Shown: positions 9,799 to 52,557 of the stretch, piece after piece
Numbering within the stretch: position 1 is the first letter of the stretch
How the letters are laid out: every line of letters starts with the position of its first letter
Assembly (NCBI GenBank): GCA_015231605.1
Contig: JADGBG010000008.1
Coordinates: 1 to 52,557 of the forward strand
Reading direction: 5' to 3'
DNA from: Alphaproteobacteria bacterium
Lineage (GTDB): Bacteria > Pseudomonadota > Alphaproteobacteria > Rhodospirillales > Magnetovibrionaceae
Length of the DNA: 52,557 nucleotides
Position numbers and translations under genes: made by a program
The notes under the pieces: generated by a model
The model's database searches: none
What the model saw: only the letters and a program-made list of their open reading frames with translations
What the model was told of the DNA's origin: nothing

Positions 9799-11043
9799 AT
9801 GAATCCCCACATGCGCGAAACGCCCCGTCACGTTGAATGCGCCGTCGTCGGCGGCGGGCCCGCCGGATTGATGGCGGCGGAGGCTTTGCGCGCGCGCGGC
9901 GTATCGGTTCACGTGTTCGACGCCATGCCGTCGCTCGGCCGCAAGTTCCTGATGGCGGGAAAAAGCGGCCTCAACCTCACCCATTCCGAACCGACCGAGG
10001 ACTTTCTCGGCCGTTACGGCGAGGCCCGGCCCTGGTTGGAAGACGCGGTGCGCGCGTTCGACGCCGACGCCGTGCGCAATTGGGCACGGGACTTGGGGGT
10101 GGAGACCTTCACCGGCACGTCCGGGCGCGTGTTCCCCCACGACTTCAAGGCCGCGCCGCTCTTGCGTGCGTGGCTCAGGCGGCTGCGCGCGGCGGGGGTC
10201 GTCATCCATGCGCGGCATAAATGGCGGGGCTGGGGCGGAGAAGGCGCGTTGGCCTTTGACGCCCCGGCGGGACCAGCCGCAGTCCGCGCGGCCGCCACGG
10301 TCCTGGCGCTGGGCGGCGCCAGCTGGCCCGGTCTGGGGTCCGACGGGGCGTGGGTGGAGACCTTGCGTCAAGCAGGCGGCGCGGTGGTGGACCTGCGCCC
10401 GGCCAACTGCGGCTTCGACGTGGCGTGGAGCAACCATGTGCGCGAAACCCTCGCCGGTCAGCCGCTGAAATCCGTGCGTCTGTCATTTGGTGGAAACACG
10501 GCGGCGGGCGACGTGACCATCACCGAGACCGGCATCGAAAGCGGCCCGGTCTACGCGCTCTCGGCGGCGTTGCGCGACGCTTGCGGACGGGATGGACATG
10601 CGGTGCTGACGATCGACCTCGCCCCCGACCGGGACGAAGCCGCCCTGGCCGCCGCCCTGGCCCGCCCGCGCGGCAAGAAATCGTGGGCCACGCACCTGAA
10701 ACGCGCCGCCAACATTGCGGGCGCGAAGGCGGCGGTGCTGCGCGAAAACACGGACAAAACCGTGTTCGACGATCCCGCCCGCCTGGCCCATGTCATCAAG
10801 GGGTTGGAGCTTCGCGTCGAGCGTCCCCGCCCGCTGGCGGAAGCCATCAGCAGCGCCGGCGGCGTGCGCCGGGACGCCCTTGACGCGCACTGGATGCTAA
10901 AGGCCCGCCCGGGCGTGTTCTGCGCGGGCGAAATGCTGGATTGGGAAGCGCCCACCGGCGGCTACCTCTTGACCGCGTGCTTCGCGCTCGGCCGCGCCGC
11001 CGGAAACGCGGCGGCGGACTGGCTGGACCCTCAAACGAGATAG
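9799..11043 (+). CDS. HI0933/TIGR03862-like FAD-dependent oxidoreductase
   Basis: A 414-residue flavoprotein of the HI0933/BaiN-like family, probably the TIGR03862 subgroup. The dinucleotide-binding motif [15 protein letters not shown] starts the protein, followed by [16 protein letters not shown], the family signature. The C-terminal FAD-contact segment is [20 protein letters not shown]. The physiological substrate is unknown; some relatives reduce double bonds. It diverges from ygiQ with only 37 bases between the starts. Its 3' end overlaps the convergent HD-GYP gene by 13 bases. Confidence 0.85.
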
Positions 11044-44687: not shown

Positions 44688-45827
44688 ATGTCTAAAAAGG
44701 TTTTGATCGTTGGCGGCGGCCTGGCCGGCACCATCGTGGCGAACGGCTTGTGCCGTCACATCGCCCCGCAAATGCGCAAGGGCGAAATTTCCATCACCAT
44801 GATCGGCACCACCGACACGCACATGTACCAACCGGGTCTCTTGTACGTGCCGTTCGGCAAGATCCGTGAACACGAGCTGTTCCGCCCGCAACGCAAGGTG
44901 CTGGACAAGCGCGTGATCTTCCACATCGACCCGGCCACCAACATCGACGTGGAAAACCAGAAGGTAACCTGCAAATCCGGCGCGGTGCACGAATACGACT
45001 ATCTGGTCATCGCCACCGGTTCGCGCATCATGCCGCAGAACATCCCCGGCATGGAGGAAGGCGGCCACTGGTTCTACGATCTGGACGGCGCGCGCAAGCT
45101 GCGCACCGCATTGGACACGTTCGAGGGCGGCAAGATCGTGGTCAACGTCAACGCCCCCCACAAGTGCCCGGTGGCCCCACTGGAAATCACCTTCATGCTG
45201 AAGGAATACCTCCAGGGCAAGGGGCTGTGGAACAAGACCGAAATCACCTACACCTATCCGATCGGCCGCCTGCACGCGCTGGAACCGGTCGCCGAATGGG
45301 CCAAGCCGGCCATGGACAAGGACGGCATCAAGTACGAAACCTTCTTCAACACCAAGGAAGTCGATCCCGACGCCAAGACCATCTCGTCGGAAGAAGGCGT
45401 CACGCTCAACTACGACCTGCTGGTCACCATCCCGCCGCACAACGGCGCGCCGGTCATTATGGATTCGGGCCTGGGCGACGGCGGCTGGGTTCCAACCAAC
45501 AAGACCAAGCTGCTGCGTGAAGGCTCCACCAACGTGTTCGTGTGTGGCGACACCACCAACATTCCGATTTCCAAGGCCGGTTCCACCGCCCACTTCGAGG
45601 CCGACACCGTCATCGACAACCTGGCGTCCATCCTGACCGAGGGCCGTTGGGCGCGCGATTACGACGGCAAGGTGTTCTGCTTCGTCGAAACCGGCATGAA
45701 CACCGGCACCTACGTGTGGTTCAACTACACCACCCCGCCCAACCCGGGCGCTCCGTCGCAGATGATCCACTGGTTCAAGCTGGCCTACAACCGGCTCTAC
45801 TGGTTGTCCGCGCGCGGCTTGCTGTAA
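44688..45827 (+). CDS. sulfide:quinone oxidoreductase-like flavoprotein
   Basis: A 379-residue two-dinucleotide-fold flavoprotein. FAD binding is at KVLIVGGGLAGTIVANGL, with YDYLVIATGSRI and VFVCGDTTNIPISKAGS as further FAD contacts. Cys160 (PHKCPVAPLE) and Cys331 (VFCFVETG) occupy the places of the redox cysteines of SQR; the third cysteine of type I enzymes has no clear equivalent. A C-terminal amphipathic helix (FKLAYNRLYWLSARGLL) would bind the membrane surface as in SQR. It probably oxidises sulfide or persulfide and reduces quinone, with TusA and DsrE as partners. A non-SQR activity cannot be excluded. Confidence 0.82.
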   Translation: MSKKVLIVGGGLAGTIVANGLCRHIAPQMRKGEISITMIGTTDTHMYQPGLLYVPFGKIREHELFRPQRKVLDKRVIFHIDPATNIDVENQKVTCKSGAVHEYDYLVIATGSRIMPQNIPGMEEGGHWFYDLDGARKLRTALDTFEGGKIVVNVNAPHKCPVAPLEITFMLKEYLQGKGLWNKTEITYTYPIGRLHALEPVAEWAKPAMDKDGIKYETFFNTKEVDPDAKTISSEEGVTLNYDLLVTIPPHNGAPVIMDSGLGDGGWVPTNKTKLLREGSTNVFVCGDTTNIPISKAGSTAHFEADTVIDNLASILTEGRWARDYDGKVFCFVETGMNTGTYVWFNYTTPPNPGAPSQMIHWFKLAYNRLYWLSARGLL

Positions 45828-45840
45828 GGGGGGATGCGCG

Positions 45841-46368
45841 ATGAGCAACACCCAAACCGAAAACGTGCTGCGTCTGGTCGAGGCCGCGTCCGAGGCCATG
45901 ACCGACGGCATGGTGGAACGTCTCGCCTCCACCGGCGGCAACGCCTTGGAAATTCTGGATCGCCTCAACGATCCCGACACCAAGGAAGCGATCCTGGACA
46001 CCCTGGAGCGGTTCAAGGAACTGCACCGCACCGGGGCCGTGGACACCCTGTTCGAACTGCTGATCCTCATGCACGGCGCCCGCGCCGCGCTGACCGACAC
46101 GTTGGTCGAACGCCTGGTGATCTGGGCGGAATCCATGATCAACAACATCGCCAACGAACACCTGGCCGAATTCGCCGGTGAAACCGTCGACGCCATGCAC
46201 GAAGCGGCGGTGGAAACCGCCGGCATGAAGGCCGGCGGCGGCCTGATGTCGACCCTGGCGATGCTGAGCAAGCCGGAAACCCAACAGGCCATCAAGTTCC
46301 TGATGACGTTCGCCTGCAAGATGCAGAAGAACGTGTCGGACGCGAAGATGATCAGCCGTCCGGACTGA
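45841..46368 (+). CDS. DUF1641 family protein
   Basis: A 175-residue, largely helical protein. RLNDPDTKEAILDTLERFKEL and GGGLMSTLAMLSKPETQQAIKFLM are characteristic DUF1641 blocks. No catalytic motif is visible; the only cysteine is near the C-terminus. DUF1641 genes commonly accompany SQR-like and formate dehydrogenase-related genes, suggesting an accessory or scaffold role. It is the last gene of the sulfur operon, 13 bases after the flavoprotein, and a strong terminator follows. Confidence 0.85.
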   Translation: MSNTQTENVLRLVEAASEAMTDGMVERLASTGGNALEILDRLNDPDTKEAILDTLERFKELHRTGAVDTLFELLILMHGARAALTDTLVERLVIWAESMINNIANEHLAEFAGETVDAMHEAAVETAGMKAGGGLMSTLAMLSKPETQQAIKFLMTFACKMQKNVSDAKMISRPD

Positions 46369-46436: not shown

Positions 46437-47948
46437 TCAACGTGCTGCGGGCAGTTCGACCCAGAACACGCTGCCGACGCCGGGCCTGCTGGAAAATCCG
46501 ATGCGCCCCCCCATGGCCTCGACAAGCTGCTTGGTGACGGTGAGGCCCACGCCCGCGCCGCTGACCTCGCTGGTTTCCTTGCCCAGACGGTCGAAGGGCT
46601 CGAACACCTTGTCTTTCATCGCTTCGGGTATGCCGGGGCCGGTGTCGGTGATGTCGATGCGGACCATGCCGCTTTCGTCGGACCGGGTCGACACCTTCAC
46701 CCATCCGCCTTGCGTGTTGTATTTGACCGCGTTGGACATCAGGTTCAGCAAAACCTGTTTCATGCGCATGCGGTCGGCGCGCACCGCCCCGGAATGGCCG
46801 AGCCCGGTTTCGATCTTGATCGCGCGCTCCTCGGCTTGCGGCGTGACGAGGGCGACGCATTCCTCGACCGTGGGCGTCACCGGCACGTCGCCGATGTTGA
46901 TGTTGAGCCGCCCGGTTTCGATCCGCGCCAAATCGAGAACCTGTTCTACAAGCTCCAAAAGATGCTGGCCGCCGCCGATGATCTGCTCCACGCACCGGGC
47001 CTGCGTGTTGGTCAAGGGCTCCTTGGCGTTCATTCCCATCAACTGGGCGAAGCCGAGAATGGCGTTCAAGGGGGTGCGCAGTTCATGGCTCATGGAGGAC
47101 AGGAATTCCGACTTCGCCCGGCTCGCCTGCTCCGCTTCGTGGGTGCGCAGCCGGACCCGGTCTTCCAGTTCCCGGTTGAGGGTTTCCAGTTCGCTCTTGG
47201 CGTCGGCAAGCCGTTCGATCATGGCGTTGTAAACGGTGGCGAGACGCGCCAGTTCATGCGCGCCGCCGTCGCCGAAATCGGCGCGATGCCCGTTCAGATT
47301 GGCGAAGTCGGCGCGTTCCATCTGGCGCGTGAAGGCGTTGAGCCGACTGACGAGAAACCGCTTGAACGCCCACATGAACAAAAACCACAGCAACACCGTC
47401 TTGACTGCGGCGGCGATCACCATGATCAGAAAGCTCAGCTTCACCTTGTCGAAAACGATGGACCCGCTGGAATAAAAATGGATGCTGGCGACCTCGCGGC
47501 CTTCGTACAGGACGGGGAAATGGTGGGAGAACAATCCAAGCCAGCCGTCCCGGCCCGCGCCATCCCCGGACGCGTCCTCCGCGTCGTCAGGAATTCGCCC
47601 CCGCATGTAGGCGGTTTCACCGTTGGATTCGACGACACGCACGCCGACGATGTCGCTCAACTGAATGATGCCGTCCAGGATGGCTTCCATCTGTTCGGTG
47701 TCGACGTTCCACAACGCGCCCGCCAGACTGGGCGAAAAAATGGACTGGTAGGTGACGAGATTGCCGCGCACCTCCCCCTTGGCCATCCCATATTCGTTGG
47801 CCATCTGCATCCCGGTGATGACAATGGTGGCCGTCAGATAGATGGAGAAGACGATCTTGAGCAATTGGTAGGCGATGGAACGCCGAAGTCCGCCGGGAAT
47901 GTCTCTGCGTTCCTGTGCCATCGGGGTATCCGCTGTTTCTTTGCTCAT
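46437..47948 (-). CDS. membrane sensor histidine kinase
   Basis: A 503-residue kinase. Helix one (about 31–50), a periplasmic loop of about 115 residues, and helix two (about 171–195) precede a HAMP-like linker and coiled coil (about 200–275). HisKA has His288 in SSMSHELRTPLNAIL; the ATPase has NLMSNAVKYN, DTGPGIPEAM and GAGVGLTVTKQL. No receiver or response regulator gene is adjacent. It diverges from a periplasmic binding-protein gene with only 59 bases between starts, suggesting that the binding protein delivers the signal to the periplasmic loop. Confidence 0.9.
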   Translation of the reverse strand: MSKETADTPMAQERRDIPGGLRRSIAYQLLKIVFSIYLTATIVITGMQMANEYGMAKGEVRGNLVTYQSIFSPSLAGALWNVDTEQMEAILDGIIQLSDIVGVRVVESNGETAYMRGRIPDDAEDASGDGAGRDGWLGLFSHHFPVLYEGREVASIHFYSSGSIVFDKVKLSFLIMVIAAAVKTVLLWFLFMWAFKRFLVSRLNAFTRQMERADFANLNGHRADFGDGGAHELARLATVYNAMIERLADAKSELETLNRELEDRVRLRTHEAEQASRAKSEFLSSMSHELRTPLNAILGFAQLMGMNAKEPLTNTQARCVEQIIGGGQHLLELVEQVLDLARIETGRLNINIGDVPVTPTVEECVALVTPQAEERAIKIETGLGHSGAVRADRMRMKQVLLNLMSNAVKYNTQGGWVKVSTRSDESGMVRIDITDTGPGIPEAMKDKVFEPFDRLGKETSEVSGAGVGLTVTKQLVEAMGGRIGFSSRPGVGSVFWVELPAAR

Positions 47949-48007
47949 GCCTGCCGTGCCGTTGTATCATGAAAGGTGTGATGTTGAAATGTTGGAGGGA
48001 GGCCGTT

Positions 48008-48889
48008 TTGAAAGCGCGATTGTTGAAGCTGATCGTCGCGGTTCTGGTGCTGGCGGCGACCGCGCCGTCGGTGTGGGCGGAAGAGCCGCTGACGGCCGTG
48101 TTCCCCATGGGCAAGGGCCGCGAACAGGAACAATCCTATCCCTATCAGCTGCTGCGTCTGGTGCTGGAGAAAAGCGGCAAGCCGTTCACGTTGAAACTGT
48201 CCAGCGTCGAAATGCCCGAGGAGCGCGCCCGCCGGGTCCTCATGGAGAACGGCGGCGACGTCACCGTTATGTGGTCCGGTACCGCCAAGGCGTTCGAGGA
48301 AGACCTGCTGCCCGTGCGCATTCCGACCACCGGCGGGTTGTTGGGGTACCGGTTGTTCCTTGTCAACCAGAAGGACCTGCGCAAATTCGCCGCCGTGCGC
48401 TCCCTCAACGATCTGCGCCGCTACACCGCGGGTCAAGGAACCAACTGGTCGGACGTCTCGATTCTCGAGGCCTCGGGCCTCAAGGTCCATGCCGCCAAGT
48501 ACCATCTTTTGTTCAATTTGCTGGACAAGCAGCGCATCGACTATTTCCCGCGCGGGGCGAACGAGATTTTCGAGGAATTCGAACGTTTCCGTCCGAAGAA
48601 CCCGGATCTGGCGGTGGAACCGAATCTGGTGCTGGTCTATCCGTTCGCGTCGTTCTTCTTCGTATCCAAATCGAACCCGGCGCTGCACGACGCCATTCAC
48701 CAAGGTTTCGTCAACGCACACGCAGATGGGTCGTTCCTGGAATTTTTCCGCAGCCATCCGTCGACCGCCACGGTTCTGGCGCAGGCTCGACTGGATCAGC
48801 GGCTGCGCATCGACATCGGCAACCCGTTGATGACCGAGGAAACCCTCGCCATCCCGTCGCAATACTGGTTCGACCCATCGTGGCAGTAG
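48008..48889 (+). CDS. periplasmic substrate-binding protein (SBP-3-like)
   Basis: A 293-residue protein with signal peptide MKARLLKLIVAVLVLAATAPSVWA. It has the two-lobe pattern of small-molecule binding proteins (PYQLLRLVLEKSGKPFTLKL, then GDVTVMWSG, SLNDLRRYTAGQGTNWSD and FVSKSNPALHDAIHQGF). No permease or ATPase gene is nearby, so a sensing role with the divergent kinase is more likely than transport. The start is TTG at 48008 with a very strong GGAGGGAGG five bases upstream; an ATG at 47981 would add nine residues before the signal peptide. Confidence 0.8.
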   Translation: MKARLLKLIVAVLVLAATAPSVWAEEPLTAVFPMGKGREQEQSYPYQLLRLVLEKSGKPFTLKLSSVEMPEERARRVLMENGGDVTVMWSGTAKAFEEDLLPVRIPTTGGLLGYRLFLVNQKDLRKFAAVRSLNDLRRYTAGQGTNWSDVSILEASGLKVHAAKYHLLFNLLDKQRIDYFPRGANEIFEEFERFRPKNPDLAVEPNLVLVYPFASFFFVSKSNPALHDAIHQGFVNAHADGSFLEFFRSHPSTATVLAQARLDQRLRIDIGNPLMTEETLAIPSQYWFDPSWQ

Positions 48890-49011: not shown

Positions 49012-50298
49012 ATGAGTGCGTTCGAACTGTTCTTGTACATCGCACTGGCGATTTTGGCCCAAATCGGGATTTTCGCCGCCATCGCCTTTTTCCGCCACTG
49101 GACGGCATACGTGGCGTTGCGCGGCCGGCTGAGCGAATTGGGCGAAGTCGACCTCTCCTCGACCGTCTCTCCGGCCAAAGCCGGCACGGACGCCCCGGTG
49201 TGGTCGGGTTTTCGGGATTTCCGGGTCACCCGCAAGGTGTTCGAGGATGATGGCCGCGCCGTGTGTTCGTTTTATATCAAACCCGTCGACGATTCCCCGC
49301 TGCCCGCGTTCAAGCCCGGACAATTCCTGACGTTCCGTCTCGACGTCGTCGATCCCGTGACCGGCAAGCCCGCGCCGGTCATTCGCTGTTATTCCCTTTC
49401 CACCGGTCCGGGGTTGGACCATTATCGCATTTCCGTGAAACGCGCGACCGCCCCTGCCGACGTTCCGGGCGCGCCCCCGGGCCTGTCCTCCAACCATTTG
49501 CATGACAATGTCCGCGAGGGCGACATCCTAGCCGTGCGCGCGCCCAGCGGCCATTTCCACCTTGAGCCGGGAAACGCACCGATCGTGTTGATCGCCGGCG
49601 GCATTGGCGTCACGCCCATCTTGAGCATTCTGGAGGCGACGCTGGCCCGGGGGGAAACACGCGCGGTCTGGGTCTTTTATGGCGTGCGCAATGGTTCCGA
49701 CCACGCGATGAAGGACCACATGCAGAATTTGGCCGGGGCCCACTCCAATGTTCATCTGCACGTCTGTTACAGCCGTCCCCGGCCTGGGGAACGCCTTGGA
49801 AACGACTATCATCACCACGGCCACGTCGACATCGCGCTGCTGCGTATGACCCTGCCGCTCGCGCCTTATCAGTTTTACGTTTGCGGCCCCAGGGGCATGA
49901 TGGAGAGCCTGATCCCCGCCCTTGGCGAATGGGGAGTGGCGGAGAGCGCCATCCATTACGAGGCCTTTGGCCCCGCGTCCCTTCCCCAGGTGGGGGCGGC
50001 GCGTCGCCCGCCAGCCCCCCCCACGGCGGAACCGTCAGCCACGACGCTGAACGTCACCTTCGCCCTGTCGGAAAAGACCCTGACATGGGACGGGCGCGAT
50101 TCTTCGCTGTTGGAGTTTGCGGAAGCCAACGGAATCCGTGTCGACAGTGGTTGCCGGGCCGGGGCATGCGGCGCCTGCGAAACCGAGATCGAGGATGGCG
50201 AAGTGGTCTACGACAACCCACCCGACCATCACCCGCAATCGGGACGTTGTCTGCTGTGCATGTCGCGTCCGGCGCGCGACCTCACGTTGCGGGCATGA
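49012..50298 (+). CDS. membrane-anchored ferredoxin-NAD(P)H flavin reductase
   Basis: A 428-residue protein with an N-terminal membrane helix (about 5–27). The FAD domain has RCYSLS (125–130) and DHYRISVKR; the NAD(P) domain has LIAGGIGVTPILSI (193–206) and YVCGPRGMME. A Pro-rich linker (325–343) leads to a C-terminal plant-type [2Fe-2S] domain with Cys381, Cys386, Cys389 and Cys413 (CRAGACGAC, then CLLC). The order FNR-then-ferredoxin resembles Hcr and vanillate-demethylase-like reductases; the N-terminal anchor resembles NqrF. It is likely to pass electrons from NAD(P)H to the diheme cytochrome b encoded 11 bases downstream. No Nqr or hybrid-cluster gene is present. Confidence 0.88.
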   Translation: MSAFELFLYIALAILAQIGIFAAIAFFRHWTAYVALRGRLSELGEVDLSSTVSPAKAGTDAPVWSGFRDFRVTRKVFEDDGRAVCSFYIKPVDDSPLPAFKPGQFLTFRLDVVDPVTGKPAPVIRCYSLSTGPGLDHYRISVKRATAPADVPGAPPGLSSNHLHDNVREGDILAVRAPSGHFHLEPGNAPIVLIAGGIGVTPILSILEATLARGETRAVWVFYGVRNGSDHAMKDHMQNLAGAHSNVHLHVCYSRPRPGERLGNDYHHHGHVDIALLRMTLPLAPYQFYVCGPRGMMESLIPALGEWGVAESAIHYEAFGPASLPQVGAARRPPAPPTAEPSATTLNVTFALSEKTLTWDGRDSSLLEFAEANGIRVDSGCRAGACGACETEIEDGEVVYDNPPDHHPQSGRCLLCMSRPARDLTLRA

Positions 50299-50309
50299 GG
50301 AGACCCCCC

Positions 50310-50888
50310 ATGCAGATTTCCCTGTTCCGAAGCGAGGTGTTTCCCTTCCTGCTGCTGTTCCTGGCGCTGATCTTTACAACGCTGATCGCGGACCTGGCCC
50401 TACACCTTTTCGATCTCGCCTGGATCGGGCGTTACGCCGGCATCCCCGGGACCTTACTGATACTGTTGTCCCTCATCTATTCGCTGCGAAAGCGCAAGGT
50501 GATCACATCCGGCAATCCGCGCCGCTACCTTCAGATGCACGAGACTTTCACCTGGCTGGGCGCGTTGATGGTGATGATCCACGCGGGCATCCACTTCAAC
50601 GCCGTGCTGCCGTGGCTGGCTCTGATCGCCATGCTGGTCAATGTCGCCAGCGGGCTGGTCGGCCGGTTCCTGCTGGCCCGTTCGCGCCAGAAGCTGATCG
50701 AGCGCGAGAAGAAGTTCCAGCTCCATGGCCTGTCCAAAACCGAAACCGAGCGGGAATTGTTCTGGGACGCCGTGACCTTCGACCTCATGGCGAAGTGGCG
50801 CGCGGTTCACTTTCCCATTTCCCTGGCTTTCGCCGTCCTCGGCCTCGGCCACATCGTCGGCGTATTCCTGTTCTGGGGGTGGAAGTGA
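50310..50888 (+). CDS. four-helix diheme cytochrome b-like membrane protein
   Basis: A 192-residue integral membrane protein with helices at about 10–32, 43–60, 79–115 and 166–188. Helix three carries His77 and His91, and helix four His167 and His181. Each pair is 14 residues apart, the spacing that lets two stacked b hemes be held across a membrane. His95 is an additional candidate. A charged cytoplasmic-looking loop (about 122–160, RSRQKLIEREKKF) separates helices three and four. It probably relays electrons between the upstream flavin/Fe-S reductase and the downstream cytochrome c. Its stop overlaps the cytochrome c start by one base. Confidence 0.75.
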   Translation: MQISLFRSEVFPFLLLFLALIFTTLIADLALHLFDLAWIGRYAGIPGTLLILLSLIYSLRKRKVITSGNPRRYLQMHETFTWLGALMVMIHAGIHFNAVLPWLALIAMLVNVASGLVGRFLLARSRQKLIEREKKFQLHGLSKTETERELFWDAVTFDLMAKWRAVHFPISLAFAVLGLGHIVGVFLFWGWK

Positions 50889-51670
50889 TGAAGGGCTTGG
50901 CCAAATGGGTCGTGATCCTGAACCTCGCCGCGCTGGCGGTGCTGGCGTTCGTCTATCCGCACCTGATGGTCAGCCCCGGCAAGCTGGCCGATGGCCACCG
51001 GGAGCTGACGCGGGACTGCTTCGCCTGCCACGCGCCCATGCTGGGTCCGTCGTCATCGCGCTGCACGGGCTGTCACGCCGTCAAGGACATCGGCATCCTC
51101 ACCACCAAAGGCGCGCCCATCACGGACAAAAAGACCAAGGTGGCCTTCCATCAAGGCCTGACGAAATCCGCCTGCGTCGAGTGCCACACGGAACACCTCG
51201 GCATCGGCGTGCGGCATGTGAAGCCGCGTTTCTCCCATCAATTGCTGGACGCGACGACACAGCGCGACTGCGTCGGCTGCCACGCCAAGCCGGGGGACGA
51301 CCTGCACAAAAGCGTGAACGCCAATTGCGGCGCATGCCACGGCACCGGCGGGTGGAAGCCCGCGACCTTCGACCACAACAAGTTCTTCGTGTTCGACGAC
51401 CACCACGGCCGCTGCACCACCTGTCACCGCACGGCCGATTTCAAGCAGTACACCTGCTATTTCTGCCACGAGCACACGCCTGCCAAGGTCCGCGCGGAAC
51501 ACCTGGAAGAAGGCATCCAGGATTTTGAAAAATGCGTCGATTGCCACCGTAGCGCCGACGAGGACGAGGCCAAGCGGGCCTGGCGGTCTTTGCGTTCAGG
51601 CACGCCATACCTGTTTGCACCGCAGCCGGAATTCCGGCGCGAAAAGAAACGGCGCGACGATGACGACTAG
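50888..51670 (+). CDS. membrane-anchored octaheme c-type cytochrome
   Basis: A 260-residue protein with an N-terminal hydrophobic anchor or signal (about 6–24). It has eight CxxCH heme motifs starting at residues 44, 59, 96, 128, 147, 176, 190 and 216. Many extra histidines (for example FSHQLL, FDHNKFFVFDDHH, CHEHTP) can serve as second axial ligands, indicating bis-His low-spin hemes as in cytochrome c3/c7-like wires. A basic/acidic tail (RREKKRRDDDD) ends the protein. No enzyme active-site motif of known octaheme reductases is recognised. It is the last gene of the redox operon and probably the periplasmic electron carrier. Confidence 0.88.
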   Translation: MKGLAKWVVILNLAALAVLAFVYPHLMVSPGKLADGHRELTRDCFACHAPMLGPSSSRCTGCHAVKDIGILTTKGAPITDKKTKVAFHQGLTKSACVECHTEHLGIGVRHVKPRFSHQLLDATTQRDCVGCHAKPGDDLHKSVNANCGACHGTGGWKPATFDHNKFFVFDDHHGRCTTCHRTADFKQYTCYFCHEHTPAKVRAEHLEEGIQDFEKCVDCHRSADEDEAKRAWRSLRSGTPYLFAPQPEFRREKKRRDDDD

Positions 51671-51672
51671 GC

Positions 51673-52497
51673 TCAGCGGATTTCCGATAGCAGCCGGGGG
51701 TCGGTGACCAGCTTGCGCACGCCGTGGGCGTGGTCCTCGTTGAACGCGTTGCCCTTGCAGAACACGCCGACGGAATTGATGTTCACCTTGGCGCAGTTGG
51801 GCCGCACGCTCCAGGTCACCTGGAACGGTGAACACTTCTGATCGCTGTAGGACGGGCCGGTGGTGGAGCCCAGGAATTCGACCGGCCTGCCCGTGCCGCC
51901 CGCAAGCGCGTCCGGCTGATGCACGCCGTTTTCCACCCGGCCATTGTAGGACAGGGTGTTGAAGTCCAGCGCCGCCGGATCGTTGACCAGCGTGAACACC
52001 TGCGCCTCCACGCGCAGCTGTGGGTTCTTGCAGGTGTCCGACAGGCACGAGCTCAGCGTCGGCCCCGGCTTGACGTCACAGGTGGAATAGACCCAGTGCA
52101 CTTCGATGGTGTCTCCGGGAACCAGATCGCCGTGTTCGCCTTTGCAGATCGTGCCGAGCGTGGGCGACAATTCGGCGGTGCTCAGTGTCTTGCTCATTTC
52201 GCACTGGTAGCCGCTGTCGTAGCCATGGCCGTCGCCATCGCCCGCGTACAGCATGAAACCCGAGCCCTTGTGTTCGGCGTTCTCATGAAAGTGAATGTTG
52301 CAGAGATTCATCTCCGTGGACGGCGGGGCGATGGTGAACGTCCGGGGATTTTCGCCCTGGTAGAAATCGATGTCGCGCGGAGTTTGGGGACCGAAGCCGG
52401 TGCAGACTTCACCGCTGGCCGGGGCGGCATGGTCGGCGGCGAAGGCGGGCGCGGCACAGGCCACGCCGAGGGCGAGAGCGCTGACGAAGGCTTTCAT
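51673..52497 (-). CDS. delta-class carbonic anhydrase-like protein, exported
   Basis: A 274-residue protein with signal peptide MKAFVSALALGVACAAPAFA. The core segment LCNIHFHENAEHKGSGF (His-x-His plus downstream His) fits the zinc site described for delta-class carbonic anhydrases, and GYQCEMS, HWVYSTCDV and SVGVFCKGNAF supply conserved-looking cysteines that probably form disulfides. It would interconvert CO2 and bicarbonate in the periplasm. The ATG at 52497 is chosen for the signal peptide; an ATG at 52527 is also possible. It is convergent with the cytochrome operon (two bases between stops). Confidence 0.72.
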   Translation of the reverse strand: MKAFVSALALGVACAAPAFAADHAAPASGEVCTGFGPQTPRDIDFYQGENPRTFTIAPPSTEMNLCNIHFHENAEHKGSGFMLYAGDGDGHGYDSGYQCEMSKTLSTAELSPTLGTICKGEHGDLVPGDTIEVHWVYSTCDVKPGPTLSSCLSDTCKNPQLRVEAQVFTLVNDPAALDFNTLSYNGRVENGVHQPDALAGGTGRPVEFLGSTTGPSYSDQKCSPFQVTWSVRPNCAKVNINSVGVFCKGNAFNEDHAHGVRKLVTDPRLLSEIR

Positions 52498-52557
52498 GAT
52501 GCATCGTAAGCGTCCGGTCATGGCCACTTGTTCAGAGTGGATGCAGGAATTCGCTTG

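Follow-up and report, generated by a model that had tools for sequence, protein, structure and literature searches.

In NOX, FRE and MsrPQ-Fre, two b hemes carry electrons from a flavin reductase across the membrane. The DsrMKJ-type and Rnf-multiheme modules have a cytoplasmic redox subunit, a membrane part and a periplasmic multiheme cytochrome c. Here we describe a three-gene locus (the trio) encoding a flavin reductase, a small membrane protein predicted to be a diheme cytochrome b, and an octaheme cytochrome c. The locus is in a 52,557-nucleotide stretch of alphaproteobacterial DNA (JADGBG010000008.1, positions 1 to 52,557, assembly GCA_015231605.1, Magnetovibrionaceae), called the window below, from a genome of 3.18 Mb. 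The closest known systems are PCC3 and PCC4, putative porin-cytochrome conduits found in iron oxidizers. Their inner membrane proteins have five helices, with SGXXG in helix 4 and H-x13-H pairs in helices 3 and 5, and two b hemes have been proposed for them (PMC5566968). In their text on these proteins, He et al. find no significant overall homology between those of PCC3 and PCC4 (PMC5566968).

Each part of the trio belongs to a known kind, and relatives of the membrane protein have been published; the trio as a unit is probably unnamed. An initial annotation of the locus, made from its sequence, knew of no named system with exactly these three genes. This holds for the open-access literature, searched without supplementary files, in which we recognized no paper describing the trio, an input to it from NAD(P)H, the expandable heme wire or a link to the heme protein SHP and the diheme cytochrome DHC. 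On the other hand, the trio does have kin, in the form of the PCC3- and PCC4-like homologs.

The three-gene module and its recurrence

The three genes are arranged head-to-tail on the + strand of the window. The first (49012–50298) encodes a membrane-anchored flavin/NAD(P)H reductase of 428 residues (P0001) with a C-terminal plant-type [2Fe-2S] domain, the second (50310–50888) a five-helix membrane protein of 192 residues (P0002), the predicted diheme cytochrome b, and the third (50888–51670) an octaheme c-type cytochrome of 260 residues (P0003) with an N-terminal membrane anchor. The first two genes are separated by an 11-base gap (50299–50309), and the last two are joined by a 1-base overlap at 50888. 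This arrangement, its coordinates and the eight CxxCH motifs of the cytochrome are all as given in the initial annotation. Gene maps were drawn by picking the longest open reading frames without a gene caller, a procedure that is error-prone in GC-rich DNA.

The genomes of 84,980 species were scanned with the membrane protein, which gave 524 confirmed relatives, and the best 80 named loci were analyzed. These include near relatives, and a single isolate supplies both L033 and L035; counts over the 80 loci are therefore not independent trials. A multiheme cytochrome is located directly downstream of the membrane protein in all 80. It has at least eight CxxCH motifs in 79 of them, and in L060 it leaves its contig. 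A relative of the reductase is located directly upstream in 74 loci (partial matches only in L033, L035 and L036). The six loci with no adjacent reductase are L040, L049, L051, L068, L081 and L092, the last of which starts 143 bases from a contig end. Both neighbors are present in all ten close whole-genome orthologs (L002–L009, L018, L019). The co-occurrence across genomes that the initial annotation proposed to look for is thus found, and the trio is a genuine recurring, conserved module.

The 80 loci span alpha-, beta- and gammaproteobacteria and Magnetococcales, and many carriers are named as sulfur or iron oxidizers (Thiobacillus, Sedimenticola, Thiodiazotropha, Thiocystis, Allochromatium, Gallionellaceae and Parabeggiatoa). 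The membrane protein is found in nine of 41 genomes in the near-genome sample, counting its own. In the class sample 13 of 289 genomes have a match, nine of them distant and one (G287) a 64-residue piece; in the phylum sample there are 28 matches among 397 genomes, 19 of them close (>200 bits). Plasmid-borne spread of the trio is not supported: among 72,556 plasmid records, none matches the 192-residue protein.

In nine of the whole genomes sampled (L114, L118, L121–L127), the membrane protein has no reductase next to it. A search outside the locus, covering 14 genomes, found a nearly full-length reductase relative on another contig in five of these nine (G341, G347, G359, G385 and G413; 42–50% identity).

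Two small genes were seen next to relatives of the trio. Beside L115, a 115-residue frame (G417:C82:32372-32686) matches only residues 1–48 and 377–428 of P0001, the anchor and part of the [2Fe-2S] domain, and may be a natural mini-form, a product of decay or an assembly error. In L157, the gene immediately upstream of a cytochrome b/octaheme pair that lacks the reductase encodes a small lipoprotein (10247–10681, − strand), called rhodanese-like from its sequence.

Features of the three proteins and of their relatives

The reductase matches the Pfam families PF00175 (NAD_binding_1, 1.7e-20) and PF00111 (Fer2, 9.2e-12) above their cut-offs and FAD_binding_6 just below it. Profile matches and cofactor motifs are both present for an FNR-type reductase with a C-terminal [2Fe-2S] domain, as the initial annotation had it. 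The best NCBIfam match, NO-inducible flavohemoprotein (1.5e-71), covers the reductase part only and is below cut-off. The RCYSLS, GxGxTP and CGP motifs and the four cluster cysteines are kept in at least 97% of 72 reductase sequences (P0001 and 71 of the 74 adjacent relatives, with the three partial ones omitted). The predicted cluster ligands are C381, C386, C389 and C416, in the pattern C-x4-C-x2-C-x26-C (50152–50259, + strand). The N-terminal hydrophobic anchor, at about residues 6–27 (49027–49092, + strand), is followed by basic residues, and the catalytic part is therefore predicted by the positive-inside rule to be cytoplasmic.

The membrane protein has five predicted membrane helices, both by hydropathy and in two AlphaFold models of moderate confidence (mean pLDDT 73 and 74, from 11 and 82 sequences). 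The two His pairs of the initial annotation were recovered on membrane helices; its four-helix reading was rejected, and the pairs are on helices 3 and 5 rather than 3 and 4. Helix 3 carries the predicted heme ligands H77 and H91 (H-x13-H), with H95 four residues later (50538–50582). An SGxxG motif is located on helix 4 (residues 114–118; 50649–50663), and helix 5 carries W163-x3-H167-x13-H181 (50796–50852; all on the + strand). In an alignment of 82 sequences (A2), W163, the SGxxG motif, both H-x13-H pairs and the residues H77, H91, H95, H167 and H181 are invariant, and H32 differs once. The pairs alone are weak evidence, as two or more of them also arise in 243 of 20,000 shuffles of the 192-residue sequence.

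Lys and Arg residues number six in loop 2 and ten in loop 4, with none or one in each of the other four segments. By the positive-inside rule, these two loops would put H77 and H167 on the cytoplasmic face of the membrane and H91 and H181 on the periplasmic face. No Pfam or NCBIfam family is matched above cut-off, and the homology to a non-heme family that the initial annotation had raised as a test was not found in Pfam. The protein is probably a diheme cytochrome b, its heme content being read from conserved motifs.

The cytochrome contains eight CxxCH motifs, against an average of 0.07 and a maximum of 2 in 20,000 residue shuffles. It matches the class III cytochrome family PF02085 (44.3 bits, cut-off 22.9) and also PF14537 and PF14522. 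An alignment of P0003 with 79 relatives shows all eight motifs in every one of the 80 sequences and another nine conserved His residues in 79–80 of them. These nine invariant or nearly invariant spare His residues are enough to cover the eight hemes, which suggests a pure electron carrier.

The length of the heme wire is variable. Of the 80 aligned cytochromes, 66 have eight hemes and 12 have ten, and there is one protein each with 12 and with 15; within the window's own family and order the numbers are 8, 10, 10, 10, 15, 17, 11, 8 and 16 (window, L002–L009). The wire grows by tandem repeats of a diheme unit, C-x2-CH...P..H...C-x2-CH...W.PA.F.H, over a total range of 8 to 17 hemes. The window has one copy of this unit (residues 128–163; 51269–51376, + strand). 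In a comparison of 90 rows, some of which duplicate one gene, a single copy is present in 60 of 69 octaheme rows and two copies in 14 of 15 ten-heme rows; eight octaheme rows are outside the pattern and one matches twice. The 17-heme cytochrome (L006, 1977–3530, + strand) has at least five repeats, three of them nearly identical, which has the look of a recent tandem expansion. Its repeats stand where the octaheme form has its C-terminal heme region.

Distant homologs of the membrane protein (217–315 residues) form three further branches, each with 99–100% support in a 43-row tree in which long branches meet and the branching order among them is open. Branch one repeats the order of reductase, cytochrome b and multiheme cytochrome c at four loci (L146, L147, L148 and L156), with a reductase of 644–703 residues; in L145, of the same branch, the contig stops before the third gene. 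Branch two, like PCC3, adjoins 21–24-heme cytochromes and further cytochromes (L149, L150, L153–L155), the latter with 27, 8, 13, 7 and 19 CxxCH motifs visible and the last four cut by contig ends. Branch three (L151, L152), like PCC4, has a protein of 800–814 residues with two [4Fe-4S] motifs on one side and a ten-heme cytochrome on the other.

With hhalign, the trio membrane protein reaches a probability of 98.1% against branch one, 98.4% against the PCC3-like branch (A5, five sequences) and 97.0% against the PCC4-like branch (A6, six sequences), where the PCC3 and PCC4 labels were assigned from motifs, length and neighbors and the proteins named in PMC5566968 are outside the comparison. By these profile comparisons, the trio membrane protein is homologous to both the PCC3-like and the PCC4-like membrane proteins. 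If the branch labels are right, its profile bridges the two groups.

The proteins of about 800 residues in branch three (L151 10201–12645 and L152 9686–12088, − strand) start like FAD-dependent reductases, as named from their sequences. The portion of such an upstream protein that is visible in L027 matches cNMP-binding and ferredoxin families, and a cNMP-gated electron input beside the cytochrome b is possible.

Proposed electron path and its alternatives

The trio is, on balance, likely to be an inner-membrane NAD(P)H:periplasmic-cytochrome oxidoreductase. This reading is based on the observed gene order, conservation, motifs, homology to the PCC3/PCC4-like membrane proteins and co-location with SHP and DHC genes (see below), and the divergent branch that repeats the same gene order (L146–L148, L156) counts in its favor; the cofactors, topology, direction, choice of coenzyme and acceptor are deduced from these. 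In the cytoplasm, NAD(P)H would donate hydride to the anchored flavoprotein. The FAD of this protein would split the electron pair and pass single electrons through the [2Fe-2S] cluster to the cytoplasm-side heme b (H77/H167), from which they would traverse the membrane to the periplasm-side heme b (H91/H181). The anchored octaheme wire, with all-His ligation, would then carry them to periplasmic acceptors, likely DHC and SHP in many species, or alternatively iron or other metal chemistry. Tandem copying of the diheme unit could adjust the length of the wire. Electron flow from the inside to the outside runs with the membrane potential, and no energy coupling would therefore be needed; nor would a quinone site be required.

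For SHP, an oxygen-binding heme protein, an electron path by way of DHC has been described, with a quinol-fed cytochrome b as the proposed source (PMC2909971). Section 12 of that paper does not mention the trio. Within about 8 kb of the trio, the 80 loci contain DHC in 23 cases and SHP (DUF1924) in 21, and histidine kinases and response regulators in 23 each, the latter two being less specific matches. Relatives of CDF metal exporters are found in 18 of the 80 and a PepSY protein in 14. SHP or DHC is present in 24 of the 80 loci, with no fixed side or strand relative to the trio; for the 32 loci that have full flanks, the count is 13. A betaproteobacterial arrangement has SHP/DHC upstream of the trio with a ferric-reductase gene between them, such a gene being found in 12 loci. 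SHP/DHC are downstream on the same strand in L088, L095 and L096, and on the opposite strand, upstream or downstream, in L031, L032, L045, L050, L068 and L077. On the strength of these 24 loci, an SHP/DHC-type chain is the best candidate for the electron sink. The SHP operon of A. vinosum, which includes an exporter annotated as FieF, is strongly up-regulated on pyrite (PMC11267869). Unannotated 8-heme cytochromes of A. vinosum also feature in that paper. The genes Slit_1321–1324, for a cytochrome b, a hypothetical extracellular protein, a monoheme protein and a diheme protein, are reported to be iron-induced (PMC10734462), and we infer that they are an SHP operon.

Several observations weigh against assigning the trio as an NAD(P)H-fed conduit to SHP and DHC. 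The trio is patchy, with a close full-length copy in only three of the 289 class-sample genomes (its own, G051 and G160). The 24 SHP/DHC-linked loci are not independent, as ten have the one betaproteobacterial arrangement, and in the window's own genome a different contig carries SHP and DHC. Among genomes that have a close trio protein, 12 of 19 also have SHP, compared to 66 of 378 among those without one, and a single family supplies six of these 12; this co-occurrence is confounded by relatedness and was given no weight. Sequence searches of the Protein Data Bank found no solved relative of the membrane protein, and those with the octaheme cytochrome were uninformative. The structural matches of the membrane-protein model, itself of only moderate confidence, do not discriminate, with b561, Dcytb, NOX, STEAP1 and b6f among varied helical bundles by Foldseek and VIA-align. 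NOX5, SpNOX and STEAP1 score Z values of 7.9–8.7 amid many other such bundles, and Foldseek gave no match at E≤0.001. Moreover, four of the nine whole genomes with a non-adjacent reductase show weak or no reductase matches (G335, G389, G396 and G406). The reductase is therefore not universal, and another donor must act in these four. The reading of the locus as an NAD(P)H conduit in the initial annotation is partly supported: the recurring unit and the expected anatomy stand.

These four genomes also bear on a quinone-linked conduit, in which the diheme cytochrome b would exchange electrons with quinone and the reductase would be an auxiliary or regulatory input. Electrons would flow from quinol to the multiheme cytochrome c or, while iron or sulfur is being oxidized, from the periplasm into the pool of quinone; many carriers bear the names of sulfur or iron oxidizers. 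He et al. modeled the PCC3 and PCC4 membrane proteins as quinone-linked (PMC5566968), which also counts against the quinone-free path, since PCC3/PCC4-like proteins are homologous to that of the trio. This model and the four genomes with no clear reductase ortholog keep the explanation alive. A quinol route needs no reductase, however, whereas the reductase is adjacent in 74 of the 80 loci and the gene order is kept in the second, divergent branch, and we regard a quinone link as rather unlikely. The same names of carriers, many of which are autotrophic sulfur or iron oxidizers by their generally accepted physiology, would fit a reverse use of the trio, with electrons from a low-potential periplasmic donor driven inward to make NAD(P)H. 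By established bioenergetics, such electrons would flow from the positive to the negative side against the membrane potential, and there is no energy-coupling subunit among the three genes. Reverse use is very improbable.

The metal exporters near the trio raise a further alternative, a metal or oxyanion reductase or a redox-stress system, in the periplasm or at the surface, in which NAD(P)H would supply the electrons and the multiheme cytochrome itself would reduce Fe(III) or other metals. The CDF exporter relatives near 18 of the 80 trios, an RND metal-efflux-like protein (so named from its sequence) that adjoins the relative in L146, and the response of the A. vinosum operon to pyrite are consistent with it. 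Against it, the conserved His residues suffice for both sides of all eight hemes, and no open catalytic site is therefore predicted. In addition, Pfam finds no porin among ten representatives of recurrent neighbors, the other neighbor clusters being unannotated and without barrel prediction. This alternative appears improbable.

The NAD(P)H:periplasmic-cytochrome oxidoreductase, if correct, would be a compact, quinone-independent route by which bacteria pass electrons from NAD(P)H directly to heme networks of the periplasm, and possibly a second electron source for the SHP/DHC pathway. The relatives, with their natural range of 8 to 17 hemes, are a set for relating wire length to electron flow, and the three genes are small enough for transfer to a laboratory host. 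Quite tentatively, the trio may be an unnamed, widespread, quinone-free NAD(P)H conduit that energizes the periplasm, within one superfamily of five-helix diheme proteins. The branches of this superfamily would have taken varied wires and cytoplasmic partners (FNR/[2Fe-2S]; a fused FAD-cNMP-[4Fe-4S] protein; none), and the present branch would tune its wire length by copying the diheme unit. The PCC3 and PCC4 membrane proteins would then be united in one superfamily.

The window contains other genes close to the trio. A delta carbonic anhydrase (PF10563, 5.5e-80; 51673–52527, − strand) with an apparent signal peptide is convergent with it; this class is best known from diatoms, which makes a bacterial copy noteworthy. 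Upstream, at 44688–46368 (+ strand), a sulfide:quinone oxidoreductase-like protein, which matches the NCBIfam type III enzyme at 7.8e-102 but below cut-off, is followed by a DUF1641-like protein (weak match), and the genome may oxidize sulfide. The segment at 46437–48889 has a histidine kinase (− strand) and, divergent from it and with overlapping predicted starts, a protein with a signal-like N-terminus (47915–48889, + strand) that matches no Pfam or NCBIfam family above cut-off. The kinase has relatives in 32 of 88 trio loci (the 80 named ones and eight from whole genomes, four of these being the same places), as expected of a common family. The oxidoreductase, the DUF1641-like protein, the protein at 47915–48889 and the carbonic anhydrase have no relative at E 1e-5 among the open reading frames of the 88 loci.

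Comparison with known systems

The trio resembles NOX and the ferric reductases in having two predicted b hemes on helices 3 and 5 that would be fed by a flavin reductase. Membership in the Ferric_reduct/NOX family is not supported by sequence: P0002 has no match to PF01794 at E≤1, and hhalign gives a probability of 0.9% against a Ferric_reduct set of seven rather similar proteins, which is a weak contrast. Five distant members were also scanned. L027 matches PF01794 at 0.032, below cut-off, and L021 and L022 do not match it. The prokaryotic cytochrome b561 family (PF01292) is not matched by P0002, and matches below its cut-off are found for L023 (4.4e-5), L027 (5.3e-4) and L026 (0.036) and none for L021 and L022. 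Unlike NOX, FRE and MsrPQ-Fre, the trio is split into separate genes, has an extra [2Fe-2S] cluster, and would have a multiheme cytochrome c as the first acceptor instead of O2 or Fe(III). The DsrMKJ-type and Rnf-multiheme modules, likened here from their general descriptions, are similar in layout but are made of other protein families and of more subunits.

In the SHP operon (SHP, the diheme cytochrome c DHC and a cytochrome b; PMC2909971) as in the trio, a cytochrome b in the membrane would pass electrons on to c hemes in the periplasm. The operon is often in the neighborhood of the trio, where a CDF exporter and related PepSY and two-component genes are also found. For the cytochrome b of the SHP operon a feed from quinol is proposed (PMC2909971), in contrast to the predicted reductase feed of the trio.

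The likeness of helices 3 and 5 to NOX and the ferric reductases is also noted for the PCC3 and PCC4 proteins (PMC5566968). In comparison with these, the trio protein has 192 rather than about 300 residues and is paired in the cytoplasm with an FNR/[2Fe-2S] reductase, and a porin or giant multiheme cytochrome was not recognized beside it. The WX3HX13H motif is present at least once in all 82 aligned relatives and twice in only 13; most lack the tryptophan ahead of the first His pair, and the window has Y73 in its place on helix 3. What the trio protein shares with PCC3 and PCC4 is the five helices, an H-x13-H pair on each of helices 3 and 5, the SGXXG motif on helix 4 and the adjacent multiheme cytochromes. 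Given the rarity of the double WX3HX13H motif, it is placed in a homologous branch of its own, neither PCC3 nor PCC4.

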